Below, piece by piece: positions 40,357-61,966 of a DNA stretch of 64,000 nucleotides (position 1 is its first letter; each line of letters begins with the position of its first letter). The notes under the pieces were generated by a model, which saw nothing but the letters and a program-made list of their open reading frames with translations, did no database searches and was not told the DNA's origin. This DNA is from Phyllobacterium chamaecytisi (GTDB lineage: Bacteria; Pseudomonadota; Alphaproteobacteria; Rhizobiales; Rhizobiaceae), in the NCBI RefSeq assembly GCF_020164455.1, contig NZ_JAIQWW010000008.1, positions 1 through 64,000 on the forward strand, given 5' to 3'. The position numbers were made by a program, and so were the translations under genes.

Positions 40357-40365
40357 TCAAACGTC

Positions 40366-41409: not shown

Positions 41410-41415
41410 CAGTCA

Positions 41416-43222: not shown

Positions 43223-43243
43223 CTCCTGGGGTATGGCAAAACG

Positions 43244-44155
43244 ATGACAAGGCAAACTCGCATGGCCCGAATTGATAACCCCATACTGTCGCTCAGAGTA
43301 CGCGCATTTGGACGTTCCGTGGCACGATGGGACACTGCAATCACGCTATCAACTCTGTGGTTAGCAGTGTGTGTGTTTATTCTGCTATTCGGAGTCGAGT
43401 TCGCGCCCTATAGACCGACCTCGATCGACTTGACGCACCGGCTTGCGCCCCCAGCATTCGCTGGCGGAACTTGGTCGCATTTCCTTGGTACTGATGATCT
43501 TGGTCGTGATGTATTGAGTCGTTTGATATATGCGACCCGTATAAGCCTGCTAGTGGCAGTTATAGGGGTGCCGTTGGGAGCCGTCATTGGAGCTCTGATA
43601 GGTTTCTTAGCGGCATATATGCGAGGGTTGGTTGATGAGACCGTTACAATGCTCGTCGACGCACAAGCAGCGCTACCATATATGATCGTCGCTCTCTCGG
43701 TTATCGCGTTTCTTGGAAATAATGTCGTTCTTCTGATGATTATAATTGGGTCCTATGGCTGGGAACGCTACGCCCGGCTGTCCCGGAGTCTTTCAATGTC
43801 GTTGTTAGAGCGCGGCTTTGTTGTTGCAGCTCAGACATATGGTGTGTCGGGGGTACCGCTCTTTGTGCGGCATATTTTGCCTAATGCACTTGGAATTTTT
43901 TTTGTGAATATGACGATAACTTTTGCCGAAATTATGCTTCTGGAGAGCTCCCTCAGCTTTCTCGGCCTTGGCTTTCAACCTCCTGTGGCGAGTTTAGGCA
44001 ATATGATCGGGTTGGGCCGAGAGTACATGCTCAGCGCGTGGTGGGTGGCTGTGTTTCCGGGAACGGTTATCTGCCTAACGGCACTTTCAGCGTCACTCAT
44101 AGGAGATGGACTGAGAGATCGCTTCGATCCGTCGGCAAGGGAAGCCGCCAGATAG
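43244..44155 (+). CDS. Opp/Dpp-type ABC permease, DppC-like (cassette 2)
   Basis: 303 residues. LGTDDLGRDVLSRLIYATRI near the N-terminus and LESSLSFLGLGFQPPVASLG near the C-terminus are the DppC hallmarks. Five or six membrane helices follow a cytoplasmic N-terminal arm. It begins 21 bases after the DppB gene. The gap to the phosphodiesterase gene, about 150 bases, is longer than elsewhere in the cassette, and the copied segment that begins at 44191 lies in it. Confidence 0.92.
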   Translation: MTRQTRMARIDNPILSLRVRAFGRSVARWDTAITLSTLWLAVCVFILLFGVEFAPYRPTSIDLTHRLAPPAFAGGTWSHFLGTDDLGRDVLSRLIYATRISLLVAVIGVPLGAVIGALIGFLAAYMRGLVDETVTMLVDAQAALPYMIVALSVIAFLGNNVVLLMIIIGSYGWERYARLSRSLSMSLLERGFVVAAQTYGVSGVPLFVRHILPNALGIFFVNMTITFAEIMLLESSLSFLGLGFQPPVASLGNMIGLGREYMLSAWWVAVFPGTVICLTALSASLIGDGLRDRFDPSAREAAR

Positions 44156-44190
44156 AGGCTAGTGGGCTGGTGCATTCATGTTGGAGATCT

Positions 44191-44686
44191 GTTTACTGTC
44201 GGCCACCAATCAGCTGACGCTTGATGGACATTGTCGCGTGAACTGTTGATTTGCGACTGACCCATTTCCTACGCCCCCAATCTCAGCAACAAAAGTTAGA
44301 TATCATGCGATTTCTCATCATCAGCTTCGACGGCCTCCGCCCAGACCTCGTCTCTCCCGATCTCACGCCGAACCTCTACCGCTTGCAGTCCTTGGGCGTC
44401 ACGCTGTCGGAGCATCGGACAATCTATCCCAGCGAAACCCGTTCGGCCTTCCCAAGCCTTGTCACTGGCGCCACCACCAGGCGCCATGGCATGGTGGGAA
44501 ACCAGTATGTTGACCGCTCCGTTACGCCGTCGCGCTGCATCGATACATCTGATGCCGTGCTTTTGCGCAAACTCGACCTCGAGAGCGGTGGACGACTGAT
44601 GTCAGCGCCAACACTTGGCGAGATCCTCGCTGCAGAAGGACGCAGCATGGCCGTATTGGCCACGAACACACCCGGCACGACACGCT
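44191..44686 (+). repeat. Duplicated segment shared with 5146-5638 (inverted)
   Basis: The plus-strand copy of the segment described at 5146-5638. It includes the leader from GTTTACTGTCGGC to the ATG at 44305 and the first 127 codons. Similarity to the cassette 1 copy is much higher than between the rest of the two cassettes, and it begins outside the coding region, so the phosphodiesterase gene of this cassette probably came from a cassette-1-like source by recombination. Confidence 0.7.
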
Positions 44687-45777
44687 TCTTCCATCACAAG
44701 GCAGAGAATTTCGGCCATGTTCGTCTCTCGGGACATTTTCGCGAGGCCTGCACCCCCAATGACGTGTTGGCGGACGCTGAAGCGCTCGTGGGCCAACTGC
44801 CGCCGGAACCGCCCAATGGCGAGCCTGACAACGCCGGGCAGGAGTGGATTACCTCGGTCTTTCTCGACCTGATTTGGCCAAAATACCGGCCGGACGTCAC
44901 GGTTCTTTCCTATGGCGAACCCGACACCACCTCTCATTTTCATGGAACTGGAGCCGCCGCGACGCGCGGTATCATCGCCCGTTGTGACAGCGAGTTTGGA
45001 CGCGTACTTGACTGGTGGGAAGCGGAAGGGCGCGCAGAAGACGTGCAAATCATTGCGATCTCTGACCATGGTCACATCACGGGCCATTCACGTGGTTCGG
45101 TGATCGACAGTCTGCGCGAAGCCGGTTTCCGGCCTGGCATCGTACCTGCTTCGGATGTCGATGTGGTGGTCGTACCGGGACAGGTCGGCGCGCTCTATCT
45201 CGCCGATCCAAGCGACAGACAGATCGCCCGATTCGTGGCGAGGATCATGAGCGAGCCCTGGTGCGGGCCGGTCTTCACGCGCGCAAAGAACGAGAAGGAG
45301 GGCATCGCCCCGGGAAGCCTGGGCAGTCATCTGGTCTTTGCTGATCATGCGCGTGCACCAGACATCTCCTTCTCATTTCGAGCCGATGATGGTGTCGACC
45401 CGTTTGGGCTCATCGGCAGAACGTTCTATGATAACGACCGCCGCATCGGACTCGGCGTCCATGGCGGATTGCATCCCAAGGAGCTCACCGCCCTTGGCAT
45501 TATCGCCGGCTCGGCAGTCGCCGCGCCGGGTTCTGTCTCCACGGTCCCCTCGGGAATCTGCGATTTTGCTCCGACCATTCTTCACCTTCTCGGGATCGCC
45601 GAGCCAAACACAATGACGGGCCGCGTCTTACATGAGGTGCTTGAAAATGCATCGCAGGCGATTCCTTACGTCCGGACCGAAGCCTCCGAGGCTACGCTCG
45701 GCGGATTCCGGCAGGTTCTTCGGCGTGTTCAGGTCGGAAACGCTACCTATATCGAGAGCGGCACGGCGGAGAGTTAG
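44305..45777 (+). CDS. NPP-type phosphodiesterase, alkaline phosphatase superfamily (cassette 2)
   Basis: 490 residues from the ATG at 44305. Metal and nucleophile sites in order: SFDGLRPDL (Asp9), YPSETRSAFPSLVTG (Thr45 as nucleophile), YGEPDTTSHFHGTG, ISDHGHITG and GVHGGLHPKE. This is the two-metal set of nucleotide pyrophosphatase/phosphodiesterases and of phosphonoacetate hydrolase. No signal peptide is seen, so it should act in the cytoplasm on imported material. It is the last gene of cassette 2. Likely reactions: hydrolysis of a phospho- or phosphonodiester, or of a phosphono-carboxylate; sequence alone does not decide. Confidence 0.88.
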   Translation: MRFLIISFDGLRPDLVSPDLTPNLYRLQSLGVTLSEHRTIYPSETRSAFPSLVTGATTRRHGMVGNQYVDRSVTPSRCIDTSDAVLLRKLDLESGGRLMSAPTLGEILAAEGRSMAVLATNTPGTTRFFHHKAENFGHVRLSGHFREACTPNDVLADAEALVGQLPPEPPNGEPDNAGQEWITSVFLDLIWPKYRPDVTVLSYGEPDTTSHFHGTGAAATRGIIARCDSEFGRVLDWWEAEGRAEDVQIIAISDHGHITGHSRGSVIDSLREAGFRPGIVPASDVDVVVVPGQVGALYLADPSDRQIARFVARIMSEPWCGPVFTRAKNEKEGIAPGSLGSHLVFADHARAPDISFSFRADDGVDPFGLIGRTFYDNDRRIGLGVHGGLHPKELTALGIIAGSAVAAPGSVSTVPSGICDFAPTILHLLGIAEPNTMTGRVLHEVLENASQAIPYVRTEASEATLGGFRQVLRRVQVGNATYIESGTAES

Positions 45778-47110: not shown

Positions 47111-47671
47111 CTATGCTCGATCGAAATCGCAGATGGCTTGCACCAAATGTTCGCCGCCAATTTGAGGCGCCCTGGAATTGTCGATCTGCAAAGCCCTTTC
47201 GCCATTGACCGAAACTTGACTGTTTCTCAGAAGGCGCAGTATAATCGCATCTTTCGTCTCGCGGCCCCGTGCCGCAAGCCTTTGAGCGCGAATTGCGGGT
47301 GGAACTGTGATGCTTAGGACGAGTAGGTCTGGATAGCGTTGACGGGCCACTTCCAGCATGGCGCGCGAGACGTTGGCGACAACGACATCGCCGCGTTCCA
47401 GCCATATGTCAATTTCTGATGATATGCCGTAGCGGTGACCATGGGCTTGCCAGTGGAGAGCAAACCCTCCCCGGACGACACGCCTTTCGAATTCGTCGTC
47501 TTGAACGGCCTCGTGGAATTCGCCTGTTGTCACCGGGCGGTTGATGATACGGCGAACAAAGTGAACGCCGGGATCATCTCTGAGGCGCATTCGAGCGTAA
47601 TCAATCAGAGTGTCTTTGCCCGCGCCGCTCGCACCGACAACCAATACCAGCTTTCCAGCGATCGGGCTCAT
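47111..47671 (-). CDS. phnN: Ribose 1,5-bisphosphate phosphokinase PhnN
   Basis: 186 residues of the guanylate-kinase-like fold: P-loop VVGASGAGKDTLIDYAR, RRIINRPVTTGEFHEAVQ, ALHWQAHGHRYGI and VVVANVSRAML. It phosphorylates ribose 1,5-bisphosphate to PRPP, the salvage step after C-P bond cleavage. It overlaps the DUF1045 gene by 4 bases and is the last gene of the phn operon. A decayed second copy is at 35350-35910. Confidence 0.93.
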   Translation of the reverse strand: MSPIAGKLVLVVGASGAGKDTLIDYARMRLRDDPGVHFVRRIINRPVTTGEFHEAVQDDEFERRVVRGGFALHWQAHGHRYGISSEIDIWLERGDVVVANVSRAMLEVARQRYPDLLVLSITVPPAIRAQRLAARGRETKDAIILRLLRNSQVSVNGERALQIDNSRAPQIGGEHLVQAICDFDRA

Positions 47672-48393
47672 AAGGCTTTCCCATGAACCCGCTGGACGGA
47701 CAATTGTGGTCCTCTGAGTGGGAAGGTCAATCGCACATAAAACACGGATGTCGGGTTGTCCTGGACGAAAAGTGACAGGGTGTTCAACCTGTAGTCCTCA
47801 TCGAGATGGGTTTTAAAGATCGCGGTAAGACGCTCTCGTGTTTTGGGCTGAAGCGCCGCAGACAGGCGATCGCTCAGGGTCAGATGAAACCTGAAGCGAT
47901 CAAGGACGTATGGGTAACCCCAACACACGAGGTTGTTGATCTCGATCTCGTCCAGGGACCGATCCATGCGCCGCTGAAGTTCAGCCTCGTTCATCGGAGC
48001 CCTGAAGCGATCGAACTCCTGGACAACGCGCGAGGCGAAGCCACGCAGGGCCGGCGACGGAAAAGCTGGAACAAGAGCAAAGAAGCCATCGATCAGACCG
48101 ATCCGCAGCGGGCCGATCGGGCATGAGGGGCAGACGGCTGCGAAAGTTCGCAGAGCGTCTTCCAATGCCACGAGCGAGCAATCGCTTGCCAACCGGAAGG
48201 GGGCCTTCAACGTCGCATGGAAGCCGTAGCGGTAGGGCTCGGACACTGGTTCTGTATATGCCTTAAGCGCGCTCGGGTTGGTGCTCTTATCAAATGCGTC
48301 GCGCCCGAGCCATTCAAAGGCAGCCTTCGTCAGCGGGTGGTTCCGGCCTGGCGTATAGTAGATCGCATAGCGAGGGGAGGGAGCGCCAGGCAC
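47668..48393 (-). CDS. DUF1045 phosphonate-metabolism protein, 2H phosphoesterase fold
   Basis: 241 residues, starting RYAIYYTPGRNHPLTKAAFE, a protein family found in phn operons. Two HxT motifs, GFHATLKAPF and RFHLTLSDRL, mark the 2H phosphoesterase active site. The operon has no phnP, whose product opens the 5-phosphoribosyl 1,2-cyclic phosphate made by C-P lyase, so DUF1045 may do that step before PhnN. That substitution is inference from fold and context. It overlaps phnM by one base and phnN by four. Confidence 0.85.
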   Translation of the reverse strand: MPGAPSPRYAIYYTPGRNHPLTKAAFEWLGRDAFDKSTNPSALKAYTEPVSEPYRYGFHATLKAPFRLASDCSLVALEDALRTFAAVCPSCPIGPLRIGLIDGFFALVPAFPSPALRGFASRVVQEFDRFRAPMNEAELQRRMDRSLDEIEINNLVCWGYPYVLDRFRFHLTLSDRLSAALQPKTRERLTAIFKTHLDEDYRLNTLSLFVQDNPTSVFYVRLTFPLRGPQLSVQRVHGKAL

Positions 48394-49547
48394 TATAGCC
48401 CCCTGACGCTGCCGTCGGACCAGATCTTGCGGCCGCCGCGGATTGTTGCGCGTAGGCGCGGCATGCTGCCCCGCTCGGCAACGACCAGATCGGCACGTAA
48501 ACCTTCGGCGATGCGGCCGCGGTCGGCAAAACCAAGCGCCTTAGCTGGATTGGCCGTTGCCAAGGCCACGGAGGCGGGAAGCCCGCCGCTGCCGATGTCG
48601 CTGAGCGCCAACAGGGCCGGAAGAATAGCGGAGGGATGGTAATCGCTGGCGAGGATATCGAGGACGCCGTGTTCATAGGCTTCGCGGGCCGACAGGTTGC
48701 CTGAGTAGGAGACGCCGCGCAGCGCGTTAGGCGCCCCCATGGCCGTCGCCAATCCCTGCCTCCTCGCTTCGGCGGCGACCTCGAACGTAATCGGGAATTC
48801 GCTGATCGCCGCGCCAAGACCATGCATCAGTGCCACCTTTTCGAGCGTGTCATCATCGTGGGATGCCAGCGGTACCGCGCGCGTTCTTGCCAGGTTTGCG
48901 AGATCCGTCACCACATGCATACTGTCGCCGCCGGCGGCGTTGTCAGACATACGCTTCCTGACGAGCTCTGCCGCCGCGCTTTCAATGATCCCATGCTGTT
49001 TCGCCACGTGGGCAACATGTTTTTCGATGTCGCGATACTGACCTTGGCCAGGTGTGTGGTCCATCAAAGAAATCAGTCCGACCGCACCGGCGTTCAGCAG
49101 CCGTTCCACTGTGGGCAATGCAGATGGAAACGTGACTTCAATTCGCGCATGGACATGGTGATCGACGAGAAGCTCATCTCGCATGCCAGTAAGCGCACCA
49201 ATCATCGCGCACGTGTGTTCGATAGAGCGAATATTTCCATAGATCTCCGGCTGAAACGACAGCGCCGCGAAGGCAGTCGTCACACCGCAGGAGGCGAGTT
49301 TTCGGTCGAGATCGTAGATCCCGAGCGCGAGCGGCATGCGCACGTTGACGCGTGGCTCGACTTCCTTCTCTATCATATCGCCGTGCATATCGACGAAGCC
49401 GGGCAGTAGAAGTCTACCATTGCCTTCGACGGCCGCGTCGGCAACCGGCCTTTCCTTGATTTCGGCGATGACCCCGCCTTCGATCCTCAATGCGCCTTGC
49501 TCGATAACGCGATCTTCAAGGACGATCTCAAAATTATTCAACCACAT
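48393..49547 (-). CDS. phnM: PhnM-type amidohydrolase (ribose 1-phosphonate 5-triphosphate diphosphatase)
   Basis: 384 residues from the ATG at 49547 (MWLNNFEIVLEDRVIEQGAL). Metal ligands and conserved segments: LPGFVDMHGDMIEKEVEPR, VDHHVHARIE, SLMDHTPGQGQ, LASHDDDT and ASDYHPSAIL. PhnM removes pyrophosphate from the ribosyl triphosphate phosphonate before C-P lyase acts. HGDMIEKEVEPR differs from the HTDNL pattern of E. coli PhnM and marks a distinct PhnM subgroup. It lies 95 bases after phnL. Confidence 0.9.
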   Translation of the reverse strand: MWLNNFEIVLEDRVIEQGALRIEGGVIAEIKERPVADAAVEGNGRLLLPGFVDMHGDMIEKEVEPRVNVRMPLALGIYDLDRKLASCGVTTAFAALSFQPEIYGNIRSIEHTCAMIGALTGMRDELLVDHHVHARIEVTFPSALPTVERLLNAGAVGLISLMDHTPGQGQYRDIEKHVAHVAKQHGIIESAAAELVRKRMSDNAAGGDSMHVVTDLANLARTRAVPLASHDDDTLEKVALMHGLGAAISEFPITFEVAAEARRQGLATAMGAPNALRGVSYSGNLSAREAYEHGVLDILASDYHPSAILPALLALSDIGSGGLPASVALATANPAKALGFADRGRIAEGLRADLVVAERGSMPRLRATIRGGRKIWSDGSVRGL

Positions 49548-49642
49548 GATCTTGTTCCGTTGCTGGATGCACGAAGCTGTCACCGACCTTGTCCCGACCG
49601 TCGGCAACCAGCTTCCTTGTTCAGGCGAGAGGTTCGCGCGCT

Positions 49643-50377
49643 TCAGCGCTCGCCGTCCTCGACCCTGATGGCCTTCAGGTGGATTTCGCGGTCGATGAGG
49701 TCGGCCACGTCTTCCGGGTGGTGGAACACGCCAATCATTGCGACGCCGGCTGCCTTGAGTTCGGTTAGCCGGTCGACCAGTGCTCTGCGAGCGTCGCGGT
49801 CAAGCGACGCGGTCGGCTCGTCGAGCAGCAACAGGCGCTGCGGCAGGATGAGCGCGCGGGCGAGGTTGACCTTCTGCTGCTCACCCCCGGAGAAGGTTGA
49901 CGGATAAGCGGCCCAAAGCTGCTTCTTCACACCGAAGGCATCCAGCCAGCGGCGTGCCTCGACAAGGGCTTGCGCATGCGGGGTACCTGCCTGCCTGAGC
50001 GGTTCGGCGACGACCTCTTCGGCCGCGACACGTGGCCGGGCATTGAGGAATTGGGTGACGAAGCCGATTTCCCGGCGACGCAACATGGCAATATCGACAT
50101 CGGCCGCCGAGGCAAGATCGATGATGCCTTCGCGGGTGTGATAAAACACGTGACCGGCGCGCGGCAGGTAAGAGCGATAGAGCGTACGCAGCAGCGTCGA
50201 CTTGCCGGCGCCATTTTCGCCTTTCAGCAGGATGAATTCACCTTCGCCAAGTTCGAACTGGATGTTTTCGAATGCGAAGAGCGTACGCTTGAGGTGATGC
50301 ATCTCGAATTGCTTCGAGAGGCCGTCGACACGGAGCACAAGCGCCGATGTCTTGGGAGTAGAAACCTGGATGTTCAT
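49643..50377 (-). CDS. phnL: C-P lyase complex ABC protein PhnL
   Basis: 244 residues from the ATG at 50377 (MNIQVSTPKTSALVLRVDGL). Walker A KGENGAGKSTLLRTLYRSY, Q-loop FVTQFLN, signature FSGGEQQKVNLARAL, Walker B LLLLDEPTASLD and FHHPEDV. PhnL is an ABC-type ATPase that associates with the C-P lyase core and PhnK and is not a transporter part. It follows phnK by 14 bases. Confidence 0.93.
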   Translation of the reverse strand: MNIQVSTPKTSALVLRVDGLSKQFEMHHLKRTLFAFENIQFELGEGEFILLKGENGAGKSTLLRTLYRSYLPRAGHVFYHTREGIIDLASAADVDIAMLRRREIGFVTQFLNARPRVAAEEVVAEPLRQAGTPHAQALVEARRWLDAFGVKKQLWAAYPSTFSGGEQQKVNLARALILPQRLLLLDEPTASLDRDARRALVDRLTELKAAGVAMIGVFHHPEDVADLIDREIHLKAIRVEDGER

Positions 50378-50391
50378 ATCGATGTCTTCCC

Positions 50392-51219
50392 TCAAAGCTC
50401 GGCGTGAACGAGCTGCTGGGTGTAGGCGTGTTGCGGATCCTGGAAGATCTGGTCGGCCAGACCTTGTTCGACCACCAAGCCGCGGCGCATTACCATGACC
50501 CGGTCGGCCATGGTGCGGATGACGCCGAGATCGTGCGACACCAGCACCATCGTGATTGCCCGGTCGCGCTGCAGCCGCTTCAGCGTATCGAGCACAAGCG
50601 CCTGAACGCTGACGTCGAGGCCGGTGGTCGGTTCGTCGAGCAGTAGCACAGCGGGCTCCAGTGCAATGGCCTTGGCGAGTTGGACGCGCTGCTGCATGCC
50701 ACCGGACAGTTCGCACGGCGTGGCATCCATCCGTTCGGTCGGAAACTCCGACGCTGCGAGGGACTGGCGTGCCCGTTCGCGCAGCTCGGCGAAGTTACGA
50801 TTTCCGGCAATCAGCAGGCGTTCGGCGACATTGCCGCTGCTCGTGTGGTTCATCAACAGACCGAGATGCGGGTTCTGGTAGACGATTCCGATATGATGGG
50901 CGCGCAGCATGCGCCGCTCGAAGCGGTCGAGGTCAAAGAGGTTGCGATCTTGGTGACCTGGCAGCACAAGGTTATAGGACCCCGTATCCGGCGTGTCTTC
51001 CAGGTTCATCATCCTGAGCAAGGTCGACTTGCCGGAACCGGACTCGCCGACGATCCCAAGCACCTCGCCGGGATAGACCGTGACATCGACGCCACCGAGC
51101 GCCTTGACGTCGCCGAAGCTCTTCGAAATTCCGCGCATGGTCATGATCGGCTCGGCCAGCATGAGCCGCGGCGGCTGGCGTTTAGGAACCGCCGGAGTAT
51201 CCACATTAAGCGCGGTCAT
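50392..51219 (-). CDS. phnK: C-P lyase complex ABC protein PhnK
   Basis: 275 residues. Walker A GESGSGKSTLLRMMNLEDTP, IGIVYQNPHLGLLMNHTSSG, signature LSGGMQQRVQLAKAIALEP and Walker B LLLDEPTTGLD. MNHTSSGNVAERLL and the following region are PhnK-specific. In E. coli PhnK docks on PhnJ. The start overlaps the PhnJ end by 14 bases. The N-terminus has an extra 25 residues before the ABC fold. It is well conserved in contrast to PhnJ. Confidence 0.93.
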   Translation of the reverse strand: MTALNVDTPAVPKRQPPRLMLAEPIMTMRGISKSFGDVKALGGVDVTVYPGEVLGIVGESGSGKSTLLRMMNLEDTPDTGSYNLVLPGHQDRNLFDLDRFERRMLRAHHIGIVYQNPHLGLLMNHTSSGNVAERLLIAGNRNFAELRERARQSLAASEFPTERMDATPCELSGGMQQRVQLAKAIALEPAVLLLDEPTTGLDVSVQALVLDTLKRLQRDRAITMVLVSHDLGVIRTMADRVMVMRRGLVVEQGLADQIFQDPQHAYTQQLVHAEL

Positions 51220-52129
51220 CAGTCATCCTTCCGTTCTTGTACCAGGTGTCGCCGATCTCGACCGGCTCGCCTTCCGCCTTGCGGATGTGCTTGATGCCGA
51301 AATGGCTGTCGGAGAGTTCATAGGCCGAGGAGCCGTCTTCCTGCGGCAGCTCATTCACGAAGTAGCCAGTGACATTGCTGCGGTAGCAGGTCTTGTCGTG
51401 GTGATCCTCGACGCGATAGGGCACATCATCGAAAACAAGCGGTTCGACTTTTGTGTAGGGGGGGACGGCGTAGAGCCGTTTCTCGCGTCCGGCGGACAGG
51501 ATGGTGAGGTGGTCCGCCTGATTGAGCTTCGGCACATCCCAGCGCGGGATGGGCGAGGGCGTGATCACATAGCGGCCGTTGACGAGACTGGGATACTCTG
51601 CGCCCTGCATAATGCGCCCGGACTTGACGAGCTGTTCGTAGAGGACGAGCCAGAGCTGGCCGTAGTCGGCGTCGCCATGCATGTCGCGTGCAATCGATAT
51701 GTCCGGCTGCACGGGGCGTAGCGGCTCCGGATTTGGCACCTGCAGCACGAGCACCTGATCCTCCCGGAGCTTTTCCTCCGGAATGCGATGGCGCGACTGG
51801 ACGATCGTGGCTTTGCCCGTGTCCTCGGTTTCGACTACGCCCCCGACGCGACCGAAGAACTTGCGAATGCTGCTGGCATTGACGGAATCGTCCGCACCCT
51901 GGTCGATCACCTTGACGACCGAAGCCGGTTTCAAAAGCGTCAGTGTCACCTGCAGACCGCCGGTCCCCCAACCGCGCGCCATCGGCACCTCGCGGCTCGC
52001 ATAGGGTACCTGACAACCTGGAATGGCGATGGCTTTCAAAATGCGCCGGCGCAGTTCGCGCTTGGCGGATTCATCGAGGAAGCCATAGTTGAAAGCAGCC
52101 CACGGCTTGGTCAGTTCTTGGAGCTTCAC
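51206..52129 (-). CDS. phnJ: PhnJ homologue lacking most of the Fe-S cluster cysteines
   Basis: 307 residues, homologous to C-P lyase PhnJ over the whole length: FNYGFLDESAKRELRRRILK, AIAIPGCQVPY, ARGWGTGGLQVTL, VIDQGADDSVNASSIRKFF, IPEPLR-like NPEPLRP and AVPPYTKVEPLVFDD. In E. coli four Cys (241, 244, 266, 272) hold the 4Fe-4S cluster and act in catalysis. The equivalent region here reads KTCYRSNVTGYF and AYELSDSHFG: only the first Cys (248) remains; Ser251, Leu272 and Gly278 replace the others. The radical Gly is kept (Gly38), with a new Cys39 beside it. The frame is intact and overlaps phnI by 4 bases. Normal radical-SAM chemistry seems impossible. Confidence 0.9.
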   Translation of the reverse strand: MKLQELTKPWAAFNYGFLDESAKRELRRRILKAIAIPGCQVPYASREVPMARGWGTGGLQVTLTLLKPASVVKVIDQGADDSVNASSIRKFFGRVGGVVETEDTGKATIVQSRHRIPEEKLREDQVLVLQVPNPEPLRPVQPDISIARDMHGDADYGQLWLVLYEQLVKSGRIMQGAEYPSLVNGRYVITPSPIPRWDVPKLNQADHLTILSAGREKRLYAVPPYTKVEPLVFDDVPYRVEDHHDKTCYRSNVTGYFVNELPQEDGSSAYELSDSHFGIKHIRKAEGEPVEIGDTWYKNGRMTDDRA

Positions 52130-53217
52130 AGCGCCACCTCCTGTTCTTTGGTTGGCAGTTTCTTTGCGCCGGTCGCAGCGGTTGCAGCGTTACCGTTCGC
52201 CTTGGCGTCACGGATTGCGTCGAGAGCCGATTGGAACGTGACGTAATGCGGTAGCTTGAAATGAATGCAGAAGCCTGAGCTTTCGACCGGCTCGGTGTGG
52301 TAGAGCACGAATTCCTCGGTGGAGGCGGGATGAGCATCAGGCCGGGTAGAGGCGAGATCGAGGGCCGCCGCGGCAATGACCTTGACCTCGTTCCAGCCGA
52401 AGGTGGCCGAGAAGCCAAGCTCCAGGCTCTTCGACTTGGAGATGATCTCGGCCTGGCTAACACGCACGCGGCCAGCGCTGAAGACTGTGCCGCGCGGGTG
52501 GCGCAGCCGTACCGGAGCTTCGCCAAGACGCAACTCATTGACCGTTGGGTGGACATCGCCATAACCGCGCATGGTTGAATAACCAAGCGCCAGCGTGCCG
52601 CCGGTATCGGCTCTCGCCAAGCTTTGCAGCTTATGGGCTCGGGGTGCTGGGAATAGCAAAGGTTCACGCGTCAGATCAGGGATTTTTTCTGGCGAGACTG
52701 TTTCGACCGGGTGATCAGCGATCAGCCCTTGCGCCTTTTGCCAGTCCGTCAAGGAGGGTTGCGTTGCGGGTGCAGGTTCAGCGGCCGGGATGACCGGCTC
52801 GGGCGTGTAATCTTCTCCCATCAACACGTGGACCTGCAGCAAGCGGTGCGAATAGTCCAGGGTCGGCCCAAGGATCTGGCCACCCGGAATGTCCTTGAAG
52901 GCCGCTGAGACGCGACGAACCGTGAAGAGGTCCGGCTGCGTGACGGGCTCGGCGATGGCGATGCGCGGCTGTGTCGTGCGGTAGGCACGCAAGAGCAGGA
53001 CTGCTTCATAAAGGTCGCCGCCCGCCTGGGCGAGCGCAAGTGCCGCCAAATCCGGTTCGTAGAGCGAGGCTTCGCCCATGAGGCGGTCGACAAGATAGGG
53101 AAAATTGTCACGAACAGTCTCGACTCTGTCCCTGGTAATGGTTCCGAGATCGCTGCGGAACAGCCGCTCCGCCTGTTCGATAGCGTGTTCTCCGCCACGG
53201 GTTGCCACATAGGCCAT
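52126..53217 (-). CDS. phnI: C-P lyase complex subunit PhnI
   Basis: 363 residues: MAYVATRGGEHAIEQAERLF, VLLLRAYRTTQPRIAIAEPV, AFKDIPGGQILGPTLDYSHR, STMRGYGDVHPTVNELRLG and SSGFCIHFKLPHYVTFQSA. PhnI with PhnG and PhnH transfers the phosphonate to the ribose of a nucleoside triphosphate. His319 and His324 in IHFKLPHY correspond to the metal-binding pair (328 and 333 in E. coli) at the PhnI/PhnJ interface and are kept. The GYG-to-FGW segment near residue 280 is more divergent than usual. It overlaps phnH by one base. Confidence 0.92.
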   Translation of the reverse strand: MAYVATRGGEHAIEQAERLFRSDLGTITRDRVETVRDNFPYLVDRLMGEASLYEPDLAALALAQAGGDLYEAVLLLRAYRTTQPRIAIAEPVTQPDLFTVRRVSAAFKDIPGGQILGPTLDYSHRLLQVHVLMGEDYTPEPVIPAAEPAPATQPSLTDWQKAQGLIADHPVETVSPEKIPDLTREPLLFPAPRAHKLQSLARADTGGTLALGYSTMRGYGDVHPTVNELRLGEAPVRLRHPRGTVFSAGRVRVSQAEIISKSKSLELGFSATFGWNEVKVIAAAALDLASTRPDAHPASTEEFVLYHTEPVESSGFCIHFKLPHYVTFQSALDAIRDAKANGNAATAATGAKKLPTKEQEVAL

Positions 53218-53762
53218 CAGAGCACCTCGATTTTGGTGGAACGGGGAAGGCCGATGACATCGTCGCCATCGACAAGATAGACGTCAAAGCCAAGCGGGTA
53301 GCGGATCGCCCTCTCGCGCATCTGCCAGAACGAGGGATCGATGCCGTCAACGGCGATCGTCAGGCTGTCTTTGATGCCGGGGCCGGTCAGGCGCAGTCCC
53401 TGCCCGAAGCCGAAGCGGGCCGGTGCGAATAATGTGGCTGCTTCGTCCGGATAGGCGAGCGTGCCGGTGCGCAAGACTGCGTGCCTGGAGACCTTTTCTT
53501 CCGTGTCTATCACGGTGAACACATATTCGGCTTCACTGAGCGAAACGGCACGCGCGCCACTCCGCTTCAAGGCGTGTTCAAATTCGACATCGTCTTCGAC
53601 ATGGAATGAGCATTCACGATCGATCAGGCTTTCGGCCATTGCTGCCAGTCCGCCGGCGGGCAGCGTGCGGACGATACCGGGGCGGCTGAGCGCCCACATC
53701 ATCTCCTCGAAGGTGGCATTGGTCCGACTGTCATCCGCTGTCGGAAGAAGAGAAAGTGTCAT
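53217..53762 (-). CDS. phnH: C-P lyase complex subunit PhnH
   Basis: 181 residues: TNATFEEMMWALSRPGIVRT at the N-terminus, FGFGQGLRLTGPGIKDSLTI and YPLGFDVYLVDGDDVIGLPR near the end, all in the order of PhnH. PhnH is a PLP-transferase-like fold protein without cofactor that forms part of the PhnGHIJ core. The start overlaps the phnG stop by one base. Confidence 0.92.
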   Translation of the reverse strand: MTLSLLPTADDSRTNATFEEMMWALSRPGIVRTLPAGGLAAMAESLIDRECSFHVEDDVEFEHALKRSGARAVSLSEAEYVFTVIDTEEKVSRHAVLRTGTLAYPDEAATLFAPARFGFGQGLRLTGPGIKDSLTIAVDGIDPSFWQMRERAIRYPLGFDVYLVDGDDVIGLPRSTKIEVL

Positions 53763-54220
53763 TAGAATGTCTCCATCTGCACGCGGGTCGCCTCGACCTT
53801 CCTCAGCCGTTCCCGGTCGCAGTCCGCGTGGTGGCGCTGCTCCGTCTGAAGAAACTCGAGGATCGGCTTCGCTGGATGGCCTGCGGCGATCGCGGCATCG
53901 ATCACCGCCATCGCCATGGCATGTTCGAGATCGTGGCCGACAACCGCACCGTAACCTTCCACCCCGCGGCCTGGCACTTGTATGTGCGCTTCGGCAACGA
54001 GGACTTCGCCGAGATGAAACGCAGTGCCTTGGACCGTGTCCTGATAGGGCAGCATGGCAAGCCCCGTCCGGTTGTTGATGACGGCGACGTCGCCGATGTC
54101 GTCGAGGATCTGCTCGGCGACGGCCTTGATTTGAGCCGGGCGGCTGGCGGCGAGAATCTCGAGCGCCTGGCCGTGATGATAGTTTCCGATGACCGGATTA
54201 CCGGCCGAGAGGTCAGTCAT
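53762..54220 (-). CDS. phnG: C-P lyase complex subunit PhnG
   Basis: 152 residues from the ATG at 54220 (MTDLSAGNPVIGNYHHGQAL), chosen because AAGAAGGA lies about 8 bases upstream; a longer Arg-rich frame upstream is rejected. GEVLVAEAHIQV, YGAVVGHDLEHAMAMAVIDA and EATRVQMETF are the PhnG landmarks. It is the first gene of a tight nine-gene operon phnGHIJKLM-DUF1045-phnN. Upstream lie a Pho-box-like site and two palindromic operators shared with divergent phnF. Confidence 0.92.
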   Translation of the reverse strand: MTDLSAGNPVIGNYHHGQALEILAASRPAQIKAVAEQILDDIGDVAVINNRTGLAMLPYQDTVQGTAFHLGEVLVAEAHIQVPGRGVEGYGAVVGHDLEHAMAMAVIDAAIAAGHPAKPILEFLQTEQRHHADCDRERLRKVEATRVQMETF

Positions 54221-54421
54221 TGCTGGGTCCTTCTTCAAGGTATGTCGTCGGCGCCGTCGTTGACGTCGGTTGGAATGGCATCCCCCGCGAAGGAGGGAGT
54301 AGAGCAGTGAACGTCTCCCCAATCAGCACGCCGCCGGCTAAACAAGAACCTGATCGGGCGTCGTGTTGATCATATTCGTCACGGAGAAGCCAACCGCGAT
54401 GCATTCGGATAGGCTGGAAAG

Positions 54422-54433
54422 ACATTCGAATGT
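54422..54433. promoter_or_regulatory. Candidate PhnF operator 1 (ACATTCGAATGT)
   Basis: A perfect 12-base palindrome inside a 16-base block GACATTCGAATGTTTG (54421-54436) that recurs exactly at 54572-54587. Both copies lie between phnG and phnF. GntR/HutC-type regulators such as PhnF bind short palindromes, so these are probable PhnF sites. Confidence 0.65.
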
Positions 54434-54453
54434 TTGTCGTTTACCTCGCTTAC

Positions 54454-54471
54454 ATGACAGCTTTGTGTCAA
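54454..54471 (-). promoter_or_regulatory. Pho-box-like PhoB site upstream of phnG
   Basis: On the minus strand the 18 bases read TTGACACAAAGCTGTCAT. The PhoB consensus is two CTGTCAT halves separated by four A/T-rich bases; the second half is perfect and the first matches at four of seven. It is about 230 bases before the phnG start, in the right orientation. Induction of phn operons by phosphate starvation is well established. Confidence 0.6.
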
Positions 54472-54572: not shown

Positions 54573-54584
54573 ACATTCGAATGT
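54573..54584. promoter_or_regulatory. Candidate PhnF operator 2 (ACATTCGAATGT)
   Basis: The second exact copy of the palindrome, 151 bases from the first. It lies just upstream of, or across, the phnF translation start, depending on which ATG is used, and would allow autorepression. The overlap with the ATG at 54581 is one reason to prefer the phnF start at 54602. Confidence 0.65.
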
Positions 54585-54601
54585 TTGAGGTAATCAGGCG
54601 G

Positions 54602-55366
54602 ATGGATATGGAAAAAAAACTGCGGCATGGACAATGGCAAGAAGTTGAAAGTTCGCTCGCCGAGGACATCTTGACAGGCCGCATGCCGCCAAAAGCGCAA
54701 GTTCCCACAGAGACCGATCTGATGCAGCGTTTCGAGGTTGGGCGTCATACCGTGCGACGCGCGGTCGCAAGCCTTGAGCGCCGGGGTCTGGTCCAGGTGG
54801 AGCGCGGCAGAGGCACATTCGTGCGGGACGCGCGCCTCGACTATCGGCTTTCCGATCGCACCCGTTTTTCTCAGAATCTTCTGGATCAGGGCAGAGAGCC
54901 GGTTGGCCAGGCGATTCACGAGGAGATTGTTGCCGTATCGGCCGCAATCGCGGAAGCTTTGAGGCTACCGGTTGGCGAACCCGTCTACCATATCGTCCGA
55001 CTGGGATTTGCCGATGAAGAGCCCATCAACTATTCGCATGCCTTTTATCCCGTGCAGCGCTTTCCTGGCTTCGACGAGGCCCGGCGGAGCGGACGAAGCG
55101 TCACCCATATTCTCGCCGAATATGGGGTGCCGGACTATCTTCGGCTGCGCACCGACCTCATCATCCGCCTGCCAACGAGGGAAGAAGCCCGGCAGCTGTC
55201 ACAGTCCATAACCCAGCCAGTCGTCGTGACCAAGAAGACCGACGTTGATCTGAAAGGCGTTCCCGTCGCTTATTCGGAGTCGGTATGGCCAGGCGAACGC
55301 GTACAGTTCTCCATCGACAATACCAGCAAGCTTCTCGACATATTGGCGCGCAACAGCAACGACTGA
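54602..55366 (+). CDS. phnF: GntR-family regulator PhnF (UTRA effector domain)
   Basis: 254 residues from the ATG at 54602; ATG codons at 54581 and 54608 are alternatives. Winged HTH of GntR type (VPTETDLMQRFEVGRHTVRR, LERRGLVQVERGRGTFV) followed by a UTRA domain (LGFADEEPINYSHAFYPVQR, PVAYSESVWPGERVQFSID). PhnF proteins repress phosphonate uptake and C-P lyase genes. It is divergent from phnG, with two identical palindromes flanking the shared promoter region. The ligand is unknown. Confidence 0.9.
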   Translation: MDMEKKLRHGQWQEVESSLAEDILTGRMPPKAQVPTETDLMQRFEVGRHTVRRAVASLERRGLVQVERGRGTFVRDARLDYRLSDRTRFSQNLLDQGREPVGQAIHEEIVAVSAAIAEALRLPVGEPVYHIVRLGFADEEPINYSHAFYPVQRFPGFDEARRSGRSVTHILAEYGVPDYLRLRTDLIIRLPTREEARQLSQSITQPVVVTKKTDVDLKGVPVAYSESVWPGERVQFSIDNTSKLLDILARNSND

Positions 55367-55643
55367 GGCGATGGCCGGACGGCCCAATGACGGCCGACAT
55401 ATTGGCGGGGCGCCCGTGCTCGGTGGCGTCGTCGGCGTGAGTGTCATTGCCGCCGAGGCATCATCATGATGCCAAACAACTGTCGAAAACGCCAATCTCC
55501 GCGTGCCTCTCGACTGCCAAATTTTTCCAGGCTTGTCTGAGGCTTAGCTTTGTCGCGCAAACTGTCAACGGTCTGAAGATCGTTCTCGCCATTCCCACAT
55601 AGTCAGCCATAAGTGGGCATCAATTCACACAAACACACAAAAC

Positions 55644-55661
55644 CTGTCATCCGGTTGTCAT
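55644..55661 (+). promoter_or_regulatory. Pho-box-like PhoB site upstream of cassette 3
   Basis: CTGTCATCCGGTTGTCAT: both heptamer halves match CTGTCAT (7 of 7 and 6 of 7) with the correct four-base spacer. It ends 41 bases before the start of the solute-binding-protein gene. In the 336-base phnF to cassette 3 region I see no other feature. It predicts induction of cassette 3 by phosphate starvation, together with phn. Confidence 0.72.
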
Positions 55662-55702
55662 GGAGCGCTGCCAAAAGGTCACCAACTCTACTGGAGGTGA
55701 CG

Positions 55703-57280
55703 ATGACCAAGTTTGAACTGACAAGACGTAACGTTCTGGCCGGCGCACTCGCTGCAACTGTCTCGGCGAGCACAGGATTTAAAGTCACGCAAGCCCATGC
55801 GGCCGGAACCGCCCGAAAGGCTTTGCGTGTCGGAATGTCCGGATATCCGCGCACGCTTGATCCCGTGATTGCCACTGACACCGCAATCCGGCGTGTCGTG
55901 CCGCAGCTCTTCGATACGCTGATCACGCGTGAGCAGAATGCCAGCATGGCACTGAAGCCAGGCCTTGCGGAGCGTTGGGAGCGCATCGATGCGCAGTCCC
56001 TGCGATTCTTCCTACGTCAGGGTGTCGTCTTTCACGACGGTGGCCCGTTGACGGCGGACGATGTTGCCTTCAGCCTTGGGCAGGATCACTTGCTCGGCCC
56101 TGGCCGCAAGGGCGCGACGGAAGCACTCGCCATGCTGGATGGCATTGATCGCATCGATATCGTCGATGCGCACACGGTGATCGTGCGTACGAAGGGTCCG
56201 GATGCCCTTCTCGAGCAGCGTCTGGCGGCCTGGGGATCGGAAATTGTCTCCAAGCGCGCCTTTGATGCGGCGGGTTCCTGGGAGAAGTGGACGGCGGCGC
56301 CTGTCGGTACCGGCCCCTATCGCTTCGTCAGCCAAAAGCTCGATGTCAACGTGGTCCTGGCGCCCCACGATGCTTACTGGGGTGGCCGCCCCAGCTTCGA
56401 AAGCATCGAATACCGCATCATCCCCGAGCTTGCGGCCCGCGTGAACGGCCTTTTGGCCGGTGAGCTCGACCTCGTCACCGATATTCCGCCGGACCAGTTC
56501 GCCGATGTCCGCAAGCGGGCTGAGCTTGAGATCACGGGCGGCCCGGTTCAGAACATTCGCACGCTTGTGCTCGACAAGACCGATCCGATCCTGAAGGATC
56601 CTCGCATCCGCAGGGCAATGAGCCTCGCGATTGACCGAAAGCTGCTGGTCGAAACCCTGTGGGATAATGCGCTCCCAATTCCGAACGGCTATCAGCTGCC
56701 GACTTACGGTGCGGGCTACATTGAGGATTTTCCAGCCTTTGCCTACGATCCGGAAAAGGCTCAGGCGCTGCTCAACGAAGCAGGCTATAAGGGTGAAGAG
56801 ATCACCTACCGCCTCCTCAACAACTATTATCCGAATCAGGTCTCGGGCGCCCAGGCAATGATCGCGATGTGGCGCGAGGTTGGCCTGAACGTAAAGATCC
56901 AGATGATGGAGAATTCGGGGCAGCTTAAGCAGAAGCCGGTTCACGCAATCTTCGACAGTTCCAACACTGCCTTGTTTCTCGATCATCTCGGTCACCCGTG
57001 GTGGGAGTATGGGCCGTACGGCGCCTGGACGCAGGCCGGTGTATGGGAAAACCAGGAGTATTTTGCGCTCGGCGCGAAGCTTAGGGAAACCGTTGAGCCG
57101 GAACAGCGCCGACCGATCATTCGCCGGATGCTCGAGATCATCCATGACGTGGATCCGCCGAGCATCGTCCTGCACGTTTCAGGGCAATTCTATGCGAAGC
57201 GGAAGGATCTGCCCTGGCTGCCGGGGCAGACTCTCGAGCTCAATTTCGGGCCTTCGAACCCCGGTCTGACGAGGACGTAA
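55703..57280 (+). CDS. Periplasmic solute-binding protein, SBP family 5 (cassette 3)
   Basis: 525 residues from the ATG at 55703 with GGAGG upstream. The Tat-type signal is LTRRNVLAGALAATVSAS. FHDGGPLTADDVAFSLGQDH, VGTGPYRFVSQKLDV and IRRAMSLAIDRKLLVETLW give the family. It is close to the cassette 1 receptor over its whole length (for example both have ALLEKRL/ALLEQRL and EIVSKRAF). Family 5 receptors bind peptides, nickel chelates, opines and sugar-phosphodiesters such as agrocinopine, the latter being a good model for a phosphodiesterase-linked system. Confidence 0.92.
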   Translation: MTKFELTRRNVLAGALAATVSASTGFKVTQAHAAGTARKALRVGMSGYPRTLDPVIATDTAIRRVVPQLFDTLITREQNASMALKPGLAERWERIDAQSLRFFLRQGVVFHDGGPLTADDVAFSLGQDHLLGPGRKGATEALAMLDGIDRIDIVDAHTVIVRTKGPDALLEQRLAAWGSEIVSKRAFDAAGSWEKWTAAPVGTGPYRFVSQKLDVNVVLAPHDAYWGGRPSFESIEYRIIPELAARVNGLLAGELDLVTDIPPDQFADVRKRAELEITGGPVQNIRTLVLDKTDPILKDPRIRRAMSLAIDRKLLVETLWDNALPIPNGYQLPTYGAGYIEDFPAFAYDPEKAQALLNEAGYKGEEITYRLLNNYYPNQVSGAQAMIAMWREVGLNVKIQMMENSGQLKQKPVHAIFDSSNTALFLDHLGHPWWEYGPYGAWTQAGVWENQEYFALGAKLRETVEPEQRRPIIRRMLEIIHDVDPPSIVLHVSGQFYAKRKDLPWLPGQTLELNFGPSNPGLTRT

Positions 57281-57285
57281 GGCGG

Positions 57286-58143
57286 ATGACGGACGATCGC
57301 ATAACATCGCTCACCGAGCGGGGCGCTTCCAAACTGGGAGCGGCCCGTCACCAGAGCATCCTGGCGATGATCTCCCGCGGTGAAATCCTCGCGGTCGGTG
57401 AGCTTGCGAGCCGCTTTGGCGTCTCGCAGGAGACCATTCGCCGCGATATCCGGGCTTTGGAAGACGCCGGAATGCTCAAGCGCATCCATGGCGGGGCGGC
57501 TCCGGCGGGAGCCGTCGACCTGACGGCGCGGCGGCCGGTCATGGAGAGGCTGTCCGTGGACCGCGAGGCAAAGGCCCTCGCGGCCGTAGCGGCGCTACCG
57601 TTGTTCGAAGAGGGTATGAATGTCTTCCTCGGCGGCAGTTCCACCATGGCGTTGCTCGCTGACGAATTGGCCCGCAACGGACCTGCAATGTCGGTAACCA
57701 CGAACATGATCGATATCGCAACCGTTCTTTCCGCCACCGAGCGCTTTGCCGTTACCCTTCTCGGCGGCGTCATGAATGCCATGACGCGGACATTGACCGG
57801 ACCCGACATGTTACGCGGTCTGGAAACGCGCGTCTTCGACCTCTCCGTCTGCGGTGCGAGCGCAATCAACCCCAAGCATGGTTTCCTTGGACCATCCGAA
57901 GGCCATACCGCCATCGGCGCGGCTCTTGCCTACCGTTCCAGGCGGCTCGCCTTTGTGGCTGATGCGGGCAAGTTCGCGCGCCTCGATGCACATGTCATGC
58001 AGCCGCTGAACAAGGTCGATGTCCTGGCGACCGACCAACCACCTCCTGAAGAGGCGGCGGCCGCGCTGCGCAATGCTGGAATTGCAGTGTTGCTGCCGCA
58101 GGAACTGGATGAAGCCTTAAACGACCGGAAGGAGCAGCGATGA
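57286..58143 (+). CDS. DeoR-family regulator inside ABC cassette 3
   Basis: 285 residues. HTH: EILAVGELASRFGVSQETIR and MLKRIHGGAAP; DeoRC domain: VFLGGSSTMALLADELA and FDLSVCGASAINPKHGFLGP. It lies between the receptor and ATPase genes and overlaps the ATPase start by 4 bases, so it is co-transcribed with the transporter it probably controls. DeoR proteins sense phosphorylated metabolites, consistent with a phosphodiesterase product as inducer. AccR of the agrocinopine system belongs to a similar family. Confidence 0.9.
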   Translation: MTDDRITSLTERGASKLGAARHQSILAMISRGEILAVGELASRFGVSQETIRRDIRALEDAGMLKRIHGGAAPAGAVDLTARRPVMERLSVDREAKALAAVAALPLFEEGMNVFLGGSSTMALLADELARNGPAMSVTTNMIDIATVLSATERFAVTLLGGVMNAMTRTLTGPDMLRGLETRVFDLSVCGASAINPKHGFLGPSEGHTAIGAALAYRSRRLAFVADAGKFARLDAHVMQPLNKVDVLATDQPPPEEAAAALRNAGIAVLLPQELDEALNDRKEQR

Positions 58144-59153
58144 CTTTCCACGCCTTTAACCCCTCCAACCCGCCGATCGTCGAGATTTCTGATCTGCGTG
58201 TTGCTTTCGATGCGACGCCGGTTCTGCGCGGGATCGATCTGACCATTGCCCGTGGCGAGGCAGTCGGCATGGTCGGCGAAAGTGGCTGTGGGAAATCCGT
58301 GACCTGGCTGGCCGCGCTCGGTCTTCTGCCGAAGCGCGCCAGTATCAGCGGCAGCGTTCGACTTGACGGTGAAGAACTGCTTCATGCCCCGAGGCGGCAC
58401 CTGGAACAGGTGCGCGGCGGTCGCATCGCCATGGTCTTCCAGGATCCCGTGAGCGCGCTGAACCCGGTCCATAAGGTCGGCGATCAGGTGATCGAAGCGC
58501 TCAGGCTTCATCGCGGCCTCAAGGGTGCGGCGGCCAGGTTTGAGGCCCTGCACCTGTTCGATCAGGTCGGCATTCCCGACTCCGCCCGCCGCCTTGGAGC
58601 CTATCCGCATGAACTTTCCGGCGGCCAGAACCAGCGTGTCATGATCGCCATGGCGCTTGCCGGGCAGCCGGATGTGTTGATCGCCGACGAGCCGACGACC
58701 GCTCTCGACGTGACCATCCAAGCGCAGATCCTCGACTTGTTGCAGCAGGTGCGGCGCGATACCGGCATGGCGCTGGTCCTGATCTCGCATGATCTCGGCG
58801 TCATCGGCGAGGTGTGTGACCGCGCGCTTGTCCTCTATGCCGGCCAGGTTGTCGAGGAAGCGCCGGTCGACCTTTTATTCTCACGTCCTTCGCATCCCTA
58901 CACAAGCGGACTTCTCGCCGCCCTTCCACGCATCGATGGCCCGCGCAAGACTCTTGCGACCATCCCCGGGATCGTCCCGCATCCGAGTGAGTTGGCGTTC
59001 GGCTGCGCATTTGCACCGCGTTGTCATCAACGCGCGCTGATCTGTTCAACAACTGAGGTCAGACTTCCCGTCGGCGGGCAACAACTGCGGCATCGGTCCG
59101 CATGCCTGCTCCACGGCTCGACGCCGGCGCGACCCGAGGTCGCTCTGGCATGA
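58140..59153 (+). CDS. Opp/Dpp-type ABC ATPase, DppD-like (cassette 3)
   Basis: 337 residues; Walker [13 protein letters not shown]-loop [12 protein letters not shown], signature [18 protein letters not shown], Walker [13 protein letters not shown] and [10 protein letters not shown]. The C-terminal Cys motif is [16 protein letters not shown]. The start overlaps the DeoR stop (ATGA) and the stop overlaps the next start. It is closest to the cassette 1 DppD-like protein, including the shared [17 protein letters not shown] segment. Confidence 0.93.
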
Positions 59154-60133
59154 GCGCCGCCGCGATTATCAAGGCGGACGGGCTGGCGCGCCGCTACACG
59201 AAGCAACGCGGCCTGTTTCGGAAACCGCAACTGGTTACGGCCGTCAAGAACGTTTCGTTAAGTCTTGCGCGCGGCGAAACCTTGGGACTTGTCGGCGAAT
59301 CCGGTTGCGGGAAATCCACGACCGGACGTCTTCTGGTTGGCCTGGAGCAGGCCGATGCCGGTTCGATCGCGTTTGACGGTGAACGGCTCCCGCAAGCCTC
59401 CGATCAGGCCTGGAGACGGCTGAGGATGCGAATCCAGATGGTCTTCCAGGATCCGCTCGCAGCACTCGACCGGCGTTGGACCATCGGCGCCCAGGTTGGA
59501 GAGCCGCTTGACATCCACGCCATCGGGAAAAAGGGCGATCGTCCCGATCGTATCAAGGCACTCTTGGCGGATGTGAGACTGCGTGCCGATCATGCCGCAC
59601 GTTATCCGCACGAGCTCTCTGGCGGTCAGCGCCAGCGCGCGGTGCTGGCGCGCGCGCTGGCAAGCGATCCCGATCTTCTGGTCTGCGACGAGCCGGTTTC
59701 GGCTTTGGACGTCTCGATCCAGGCGCAGGTGGTCAACCTCCTGACTGAGCTGCAGGAAAAACGAGGCCTGGCGATGGTCTTCATCAGCCATGATCTGCGT
59801 GTCGTTCGTCAGGTCAGTCACCGCATCGCGGTCATGTATCTCGGCGAGATCGTCGAAGAGGGCTTGCCCGACGATGTTCTCCACGAACCGTTGCATCCCT
59901 ATACCCGCGCGCTGGTCTCCGCAGTTCCGCAAGCGGTCAGGCGCTCCGAACGCATAATCTTGCAGGGTGACCCGCCGGACCCGGCGGCAAGACCGAGCGG
60001 CTGCCCCTTCCATCCGCGCTGCCCTGTGGCGCGTCCGCTCTGTGCCGAGCAGGCACCGGAATTGCGCGATGTCGGTGGTTCAAGAAATGTCTCCTGTCAC
60101 TTTGCCGAAGATGACGCCCGGAAAGTAAGATAA
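59150..60133 (+). CDS. Opp/Dpp-type ABC ATPase, DppF-like (cassette 3)
   Basis: 327 residues from the ATG at 59150, which overlaps the previous stop as ATGA; an ATG 48 bases earlier is rejected for lack of conservation. Walker [14 protein letters not shown]-loop MVFQDPLAALDRR, signature LSGGQRQRAVLARALASDP, Walker B LLVCDEPVSALD and FISHDLRVV; C-terminal PSGCPFHPRCPVARPLC. It is closest to the cassette 1 DppF-like protein. Confidence 0.93.
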   Translation: MSAAAIIKADGLARRYTKQRGLFRKPQLVTAVKNVSLSLARGETLGLVGESGCGKSTTGRLLVGLEQADAGSIAFDGERLPQASDQAWRRLRMRIQMVFQDPLAALDRRWTIGAQVGEPLDIHAIGKKGDRPDRIKALLADVRLRADHAARYPHELSGGQRQRAVLARALASDPDLLVCDEPVSALDVSIQAQVVNLLTELQEKRGLAMVFISHDLRVVRQVSHRIAVMYLGEIVEEGLPDDVLHEPLHPYTRALVSAVPQAVRRSERIILQGDPPDPAARPSGCPFHPRCPVARPLCAEQAPELRDVGGSRNVSCHFAEDDARKVR

Positions 60134-61071: not shown

Positions 61072-61072
61072 A

Positions 61073-61957: not shown

Positions 61958-61966
61958 GAAAAATCT

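Follow-up and report, generated by a model that had tools for sequence, protein, structure and literature searches.

A clade of PhnJ proteins lacking the conserved Fe-S cysteines, with a member in a probably horizontally acquired phn operon of Phyllobacterium chamaecytisi, and a possible Fe-S-independent C-P lyase

C-P lyases liberate phosphorus from phosphonates. The closest described system is the C-P lyase of Escherichia coli, which consists of PhnGHIJKL together with PhnM (PDB 4xb6, 7z15-7z19). In passages of a cryo-EM study (PMC9947105), the PhnJ residues Arg107, His108 and Gln124 and the loop GWGT47-50 are described as holding the ribose, the 5'-phosphate and the cyclic phosphate beside the PhnI metal. 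Sections of the same paper and of PMC7916636 leave the distance of about 30 Å between the cluster site and Gly32 unreconciled. The cysteines are treated as fixed features of PhnJ in portions of PMC11978286 and PMC7916636, and the part of a survey dealing with sequence selection (PMC9381506) indicates that PhnJ sequences were retained or removed on the basis of essential residues. The cysteine- and clade-related text of PMC6852614 and PMC10734540 does not mention Cys loss in PhnJ, and no description of a cysteine-less PhnJ, including that of the Thermus phn genes, was found in titles, abstracts and passages of the open-licence literature.

The DNA analyzed here (the window) is a stretch of 64,000 nucleotides from P. 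chamaecytisi (contig NZ_JAIQWW010000008.1). It contains a phn unit with the order phnF (divergent) / phnG-H-I-J-K-L-M-DUF1045-phnN, i.e. the subunit set and GHIJKLM order of E. coli, but phnCDE, phnO and phnP were not seen in this unit (Table 1). An earlier note on this DNA had described all other subunits as intact, and profile searches agree: PhnF, G, H, K, L, M, N and the DUF1045 protein were matched by NCBIfam models, and PhnI and PhnJ by Pfam, with the scores of PhnG, PhnK, PhnL and the DUF1045 protein lying under the curated NCBIfam cut-offs. Both flanks of the unit carry SBP_bac_5-type ABC cassettes, each with a terminal PF01663 phosphodiesterase gene, and the gene set of the cassette next to phnF likewise adjoins the phn unit of Mesorhizobium sp. 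AR07. The two cassettes are paralogous (37-53% protein identity to each other), and the DNA at 5331-12093 matches parts of the second of them at 67-72%. At 32707-34870 an aminotransferase ORF is followed by a PEP-mutase-superfamily ORF near phosphonopyruvate hydrolase (369.6 bits against TIGR02321, cut-off 374.4). These ORFs may represent a candidate phosphonoalanine pathway, and for this reason the window resembles a phosphonate island.

Table 1. Coordinates of the phn unit, its key PhnJ residues and the flanking cassettes in the window
Feature	Position	Strand	Basis and remarks
phnJ, cysteine-poor variant, 307 aa	51206..52129	-	PF06007 profile match; alignment with E. coli PhnJ; pattern CSLG
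Former Fe-S/thiyl site	51296..51388	-	Cys248 51386-51388, Ser251 51377-51379, Leu272 51314-51316, Gly278 51296-51298
Gly38 (= E. coli Gly32) and adjoining Cys39	52013..52018	-	Alignment with E. coli PhnJ
phnI	52126..53217	-	PF05861, 370.5 bits; metal His319, His324; clade-specific Cys317 at 52267-52269
phnH	53217..53762	-	TIGR03292, 110.9 bits, above cut-off
phnG	53762..54322	-	TIGR03293, 86.8 bits, cut-off 89; ORF, true start maybe further in
phnK	50392..51219	-	Best NCBIfam match TIGR02323, 215.4 bits, below cut-off 302.85
phnL	49643..50377	-	TIGR02324, 243.7 bits, cut-off 256.3; start inferred, open frame to 50716
phnM	48393..49607	-	TIGR02318, 434.5 bits, above cut-off
DUF1045 protein (TIGR03223)	47668..48393	-	245.6 bits, cut-off 248.95; PF06299
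phnN	47111..47671	-	TIGR02322, 212.3 bits, above cut-off
phnF regulator, divergent	54581..55366	+	TIGR02325, 213.6 bits, above cut-off
SBP_bac_5 / DeoR regulator / two ATPases / two permeases / PF01663 phosphodiesterase	55613..63469	+	Accompanies the phn unit
Paralogous SBP_bac_5 transporter and PF01663 cassette, opposite flank	38782..45777	+	Absent from the AR07 stretch

The window PhnJ matches PF06007 with 391.8 bits (gathering score 25; profile span 2-271 of 275) and aligns with E. coli PhnJ (4xb6) with 280.3 bits; the absence of a PhnJ match in NCBIfam is uninformative, since two canonical PhnJ proteins also remained unmatched. The columns of E. coli Cys241, Cys244, Cys266 and Cys272 are occupied by Cys248, Ser251, Leu272 and Gly278. 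The alignment thus bears out the earlier reading that one of the four radical-SAM cysteines is left, in a reading frame that is open throughout, and that the glycyl-radical glycine is kept as Gly38, with Cys39 adjoining it. By its sequence the protein is a PhnJ; by the residues tested it is not a radical-SAM PhnJ. The PhnJ of Mesorhizobium sp. AR07 is 96.7% identical and has the same Cys pattern, and Cys244, Cys266 and Cys272 are absent from all 120 nearest proteins (the best 120 of thousands of matches). A sequencing error is ruled out by these independent sequences.

To place this protein, 383 PhnJ sequences were aligned (385 rows minus two duplicates of the window protein). The alignment is enriched for relatives of the window, as 240 of its rows came from two variant-seeded searches, each giving the best 120 of thousands of matches, and its counts are not natural frequencies; from the accompanying genome scan, which hit at least 588 loci, the best 80 were carried forward. 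Cys244, Cys266 and Cys272 are absent in 284 of the 383 proteins (hereafter variants) and all four Cys are present in 99 (canonical), with no intermediates. Clustering at <86% identity left a non-redundant set of 94 variants and 67 canonical sequences. The higher within-group identity of the variants is uninformative, the variant sample having been drawn near the query. A less biased draw comprised 301 genomes of the phylum, which we take to be Chloroflexota, of the genome carrying locus L056 (G082; record title Anaerolineae). PhnJ was found in 27 of them: nine had the variant (some of these nearly identical to each other), 18 the four-Cys form and none both.

In a PhnJ tree built without the columns after residue 240, the Cys trait changes once (SH-aLRT 93, below the tool's mark of 95); the tree is unrooted, so one loss is indistinguishable from one gain. 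The PhnI tree gives the same split, again with one change and with a support of 100, while the PhnK tree, which has long branches and one clearly mis-picked row, requires two. Since PhnI splits like PhnJ, the complex was apparently inherited together, the two changes of PhnK notwithstanding. According to record titles, the variant members belong to Alphaproteobacteria and Anaerolineae, apart from one bin titled Bacteroidetes and another titled bacterium. Two Thermus plasmids also encode variant PhnJ, including pVV8 of Thermus thermophilus HB8 (NC_017767.1; PhnJ pattern CTVM), where phnC/D/E-type genes precede GHIJKLM; the search for other PhnJ in HB8 covered the plasmid record pVV8.

Crude Nei-Gojobori estimates gave low dN/dS values for the window PhnJ (0.10 versus AR07; 0.05-0.13 versus four Rhizobiales relatives) and PhnI (0.16 and 0.055-0.093, respectively). 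Versus AR07, the values were 0.08 for PhnK, 0.19 for PhnH, 0.20 for PhnM and 0.36 for PhnG. Simple inactivation had been expected to leave four-Cys nearest homologues and relaxed selection, and neither was found; nor is the suggestion of an early inactive state supported, the loss being fixed, at low PhnJ dN/dS, across lineages titled Alphaproteobacteria, Anaerolineae and Thermus. With the Cys loss clade-wide and dN/dS low, a pseudogene reading was rejected, and the earlier observation of a selective loss of radical-SAM ligands in an otherwise intact complex extends to a whole clade under purifying selection. The window PhnJ is a member of this clade and no decaying copy.

No PhnJ match of variant grade was obtained in 19 genomes of the same genus (best 286.5 bits, 47% identity), and the PhnJ that could be read from 15 of them has four Cys in every case. 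Window positions 47093-63469 are 94-95% identical to a stretch of the Mesorhizobium plasmid pMspAR07c that is flanked by two IS6 transposase genes. Between the first cassette and phnN, at 46154-46213, 20 residues of an IS6-type transposase persist as a remnant with 90% identity. On the strength of the missing same-genus variant, the plasmid match and the IS6 traces, horizontal transfer is the very probable origin of the window copy, which would have arrived as one unit including a PhnM, DUF1045 protein and PhnN of its own.

Features shared with the E. coli enzyme are the PhnJ family PF06007, the phosphoribose-binding residues, the GWGT loop, the PhnI metal histidines and Gly32. Gly32, the loop Gly47-Trp48-Gly49-Thr50 and each of Arg107, His108 and Gln124 are retained in 284/284 variants. 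Unlike E. coli PhnJ, the variants are devoid of Cys244 and Cys266 (0/284, versus 99/99 canonical proteins) and of the thiyl residue Cys272, none of the 284 having Cys at this position (Gly in the window), and sometimes of Cys241 as well. The window counterpart of the latter, Cys248, is replaced by Asp in 34 and by Ser in three of the 284 variants and was rejected as a sole essential Cys. The alignment also revealed a clade with the same Cys losses but without a conserved Cys39, and a special role of this residue is not supported: the position is Cys in just 75 of the 284 variants (20 of the 94 non-redundant ones) and Tyr in 204, so that a substitute thiyl at Cys39 was discarded. No cysteine at all is present in 17 of the 94 non-redundant variants; PhnJ itself is therefore unable to hold an all-Cys Fe4S4 cluster or a thiyl there. 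As Gly32 is invariant even in these proteins, its conservation alone is no proof of a glycyl radical. The variants have residues of their own at or behind the old site, i.e. Pro262 (284/284), Lys280 (283/284, in a column that is a gap in all canonical rows and whose register depends on the alignment) and Thr295 (277/284), and a C-terminal tail.

In PhnI, the metal pair His319/His324 named in the earlier note aligns with E. coli His328/His333 and is kept in 41/41 variant-clade proteins, as is His223 (window included). Two residues before the ligand His319, all 41 have Cys317, which occurs in one of 97 canonical PhnI (L093), and Glu309 replaces the Asp of all 97 canonical proteins. These differences from E. 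coli, which hold outside Thermus, suggest a re-tuned PhnI metal site. In the two Thermus PhnI, by contrast, position 317 is Ala and Asp309 is retained along with His319 and His324; the PhnI change is therefore separate from the Cys loss in PhnJ, and Cys317 was dismissed as a universal partner of that loss, being a feature of the remaining clade. A scan of PhnG, PhnH and PhnK revealed a few clade-specific changes in PhnG and PhnK and none in PhnH at the thresholds used. PhnGHIJKLM are co-encoded in the window, AR07 and both Thermus plasmids, and some subunits were missed by BLAST in other relatives.

The window genome has a second phn operon (G000:C67, L001/L203), in which PhnF, H, I, J, K and M, DUF1045 and PhnN homologues are clustered; PhnG was not found there by BLAST and PhnL was recognized via a generic ATPase match alone. 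Its PhnJ has all four Cys and is 49% identical to the window variant. Among 30 other variant carriers, a further PhnJ was found in 21. Thirty such sites were listed and 28 were retrieved (two short fragments of G061 being set aside); 27 of these have all four Cys and the remaining one, a contig-end piece (L206), has an unreadable pattern. In one genome (L064; G088, contig C24) a variant and a four-Cys operon lie approximately 9 kb apart on the same contig. One genome (G060) has five PhnJ copies, one variant and four with all Cys, and another (G008) has six PhnJ matches, the one read having four Cys.

No other PhnJ was found in nine of the 30 carriers (G070, i.e. Haematobacter massiliensis, G074, G075 and G082-G087) or in any of the nine variant carriers of the 301-genome draw, which adds eight variant-only genomes; G039 is a further one. 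Since many of these are metagenome bins, the absence of a second PhnJ is provisional. PhnN scored over the cut-off in three of 17 variant-only genomes (G070, G074 and G075) and is missing at this level from 14; weaker matches also occur in 11 of 14 control genomes. PhnN adjoins the variant operon in the window, AR07, L044, L049 and L204; by genome, its distance from the variant phnJ is about 3 kb or less in G070 and G075, and in G039 a PhnN homologue lies next to it. Its position suggests that the usual ribose-phosphate product may be formed in some carriers. PhnP exceeded the cut-off in none of the 17, with sub-threshold matches in 16 (full-length in eight, 101-120 bits). Because 14 of 17 are without PhnN and all 17 without PhnP over the cut-offs, the neighbours do not fix the product there. 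L039, L055 and L204 have another PhnM homologue close to the variant operon, encoded on the other strand.

Neighbour genes of the variant loci were taken from longest-ORF calls, which include spurious antisense ORFs, and were grouped into clusters named from one or two scanned members each. On this basis PhnE clusters occur in 20 of 30 loci, PhnD in 15, TIGR03308 in 10, and PhnX and HpnW in three. Both Thermus operons are preceded by PhnC/D/E-type genes, and L033/L034 have a sugar-type SBP or permease upstream. Taken together, the neighbours point to phosphonates as the likely substrates, though the transporters differ. In both Thermus plasmids (L143, L144), carbohydrate-type ABC transporter genes and a TIGR00282 metallophosphoesterase gene follow the variant operon; pVV8 differs from the window both in its PhnI (Ala317, Asp309) and in having a YmdB-like phosphodiesterase nearby.

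We tentatively favour, as a reading that falls somewhat short of probable, that the window operon encodes a C-P lyase variant which works independently of Fe-S, at the metal site of PhnI/PhnJ. In such an enzyme PhnG, PhnH, PhnI and PhnL would couple the phosphonate to the ribose moiety of ATP or GTP, and PhnM would remove pyrophosphate to give 5-phosphoribosyl 1-phosphonate. Cleavage of this intermediate, giving the usual cyclic ribose phosphate, would take place in a PhnI/PhnJ pocket, with the metal held by the PhnI histidines and the sugar phosphate by Arg107, His108 and Gln124 of PhnJ. It would need neither a cluster nor a thiyl radical in PhnJ. This would suit phosphonates with a C-P bond that can be broken in the absence of such a radical, or else a redox metal at that site, perhaps one using O2. 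The product would be fed to PRPP by the DUF1045 protein and PhnN. Counted against this scheme are Ala317 in both Thermus PhnI, by which Cys317 is not needed in every case where PhnJ lacks the cysteines, and the variant-only genomes with neither PhnN nor PhnP above the cut-offs. Moreover, as 21 of the 30 carriers have another PhnJ (four-Cys where read), the variant need not cleave there. The broader proposal is more doubtful: Alphaproteobacteria, Anaerolineae and Thermus might share a second type of C-P lyase that breaks C-P bonds, or some of them, at the PhnI/PhnJ metal without Fe-S or thiyl in PhnJ, with the PhnI Cys re-tuning the metal outside Thermus, possibly for O2-dependent chemistry.

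The best surviving alternative, which we consider unlikely, is that the complex is a transferase only. It would make 5-phosphoribosyl 1-phosphonates, with PhnJ serving as a scaffold to bind PhnK/PhnL and to close off the PhnI site, and C-P cleavage would fall to another, canonical PhnJ of the same cell or would not take place. The disappearance of every radical-chemistry residue save Gly32 is in keeping with this, as is the additional PhnJ of those 21 carriers and of the window genome. The variant-only genomes, provisional as bins make them, and the PhnN genes neighbouring the variant operons of G070, G075 and G039, where canonical PhnJ was not found, speak against a transferase without cleavage, though not decisively.

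Rather improbable is the view that the chemistry is unchanged, the canonical Cys4 site being accessory, or the radical or cluster coming from another protein, while the Gly32 radical is still made. The relevant parts of PMC9947105 and PMC7916636 acknowledge that the distance from the E. coli cluster site to Gly32 is puzzling, Gly32 is kept in every variant, and where no cluster exists its radical could be made by something else. But all 99 canonical proteins keep the four Cys, which therefore matter there, and the conservation of the Gly32 segment, which both groups share, may have a structural reason. Slightly less probable still is a reuse of the Phn machinery for a non-phosphonate substrate, i.e. 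a P-O, P-N or reduced-P compound for which radical cleavage is unnecessary. The phosphonate-type clusters at other variant loci and the PhnC/D/E-type genes of Thermus run counter to this, even if the operon of the window and AR07 is accompanied by an SBP_bac_5 transporter and a PF01663 phosphodiesterase in place of PhnCDE, and L033/L034 by sugar-type components. An inactivated, drifting copy, which the loss of residues held essential and the canonical copy in the same genome might suggest, is highly improbable given the clade-wide loss at low dN/dS, the intact operons and the conservation of new clade-specific residues.

Public records label the variant proteins C-P-lyase PhnJ, so counts of phnJ taken as methylphosphonate-methane potential may include complexes with other chemistry, and surveys that filter on essential residues, as described in part of PMC9381506, may drop variant PhnJ. 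A naturally cysteine-free PhnJ that is under selection, and is also present on a plasmid of a laboratory thermophile, makes the need for the cluster directly testable. A whole branch of C-P lyase operons may break phosphonates by a different chemistry.
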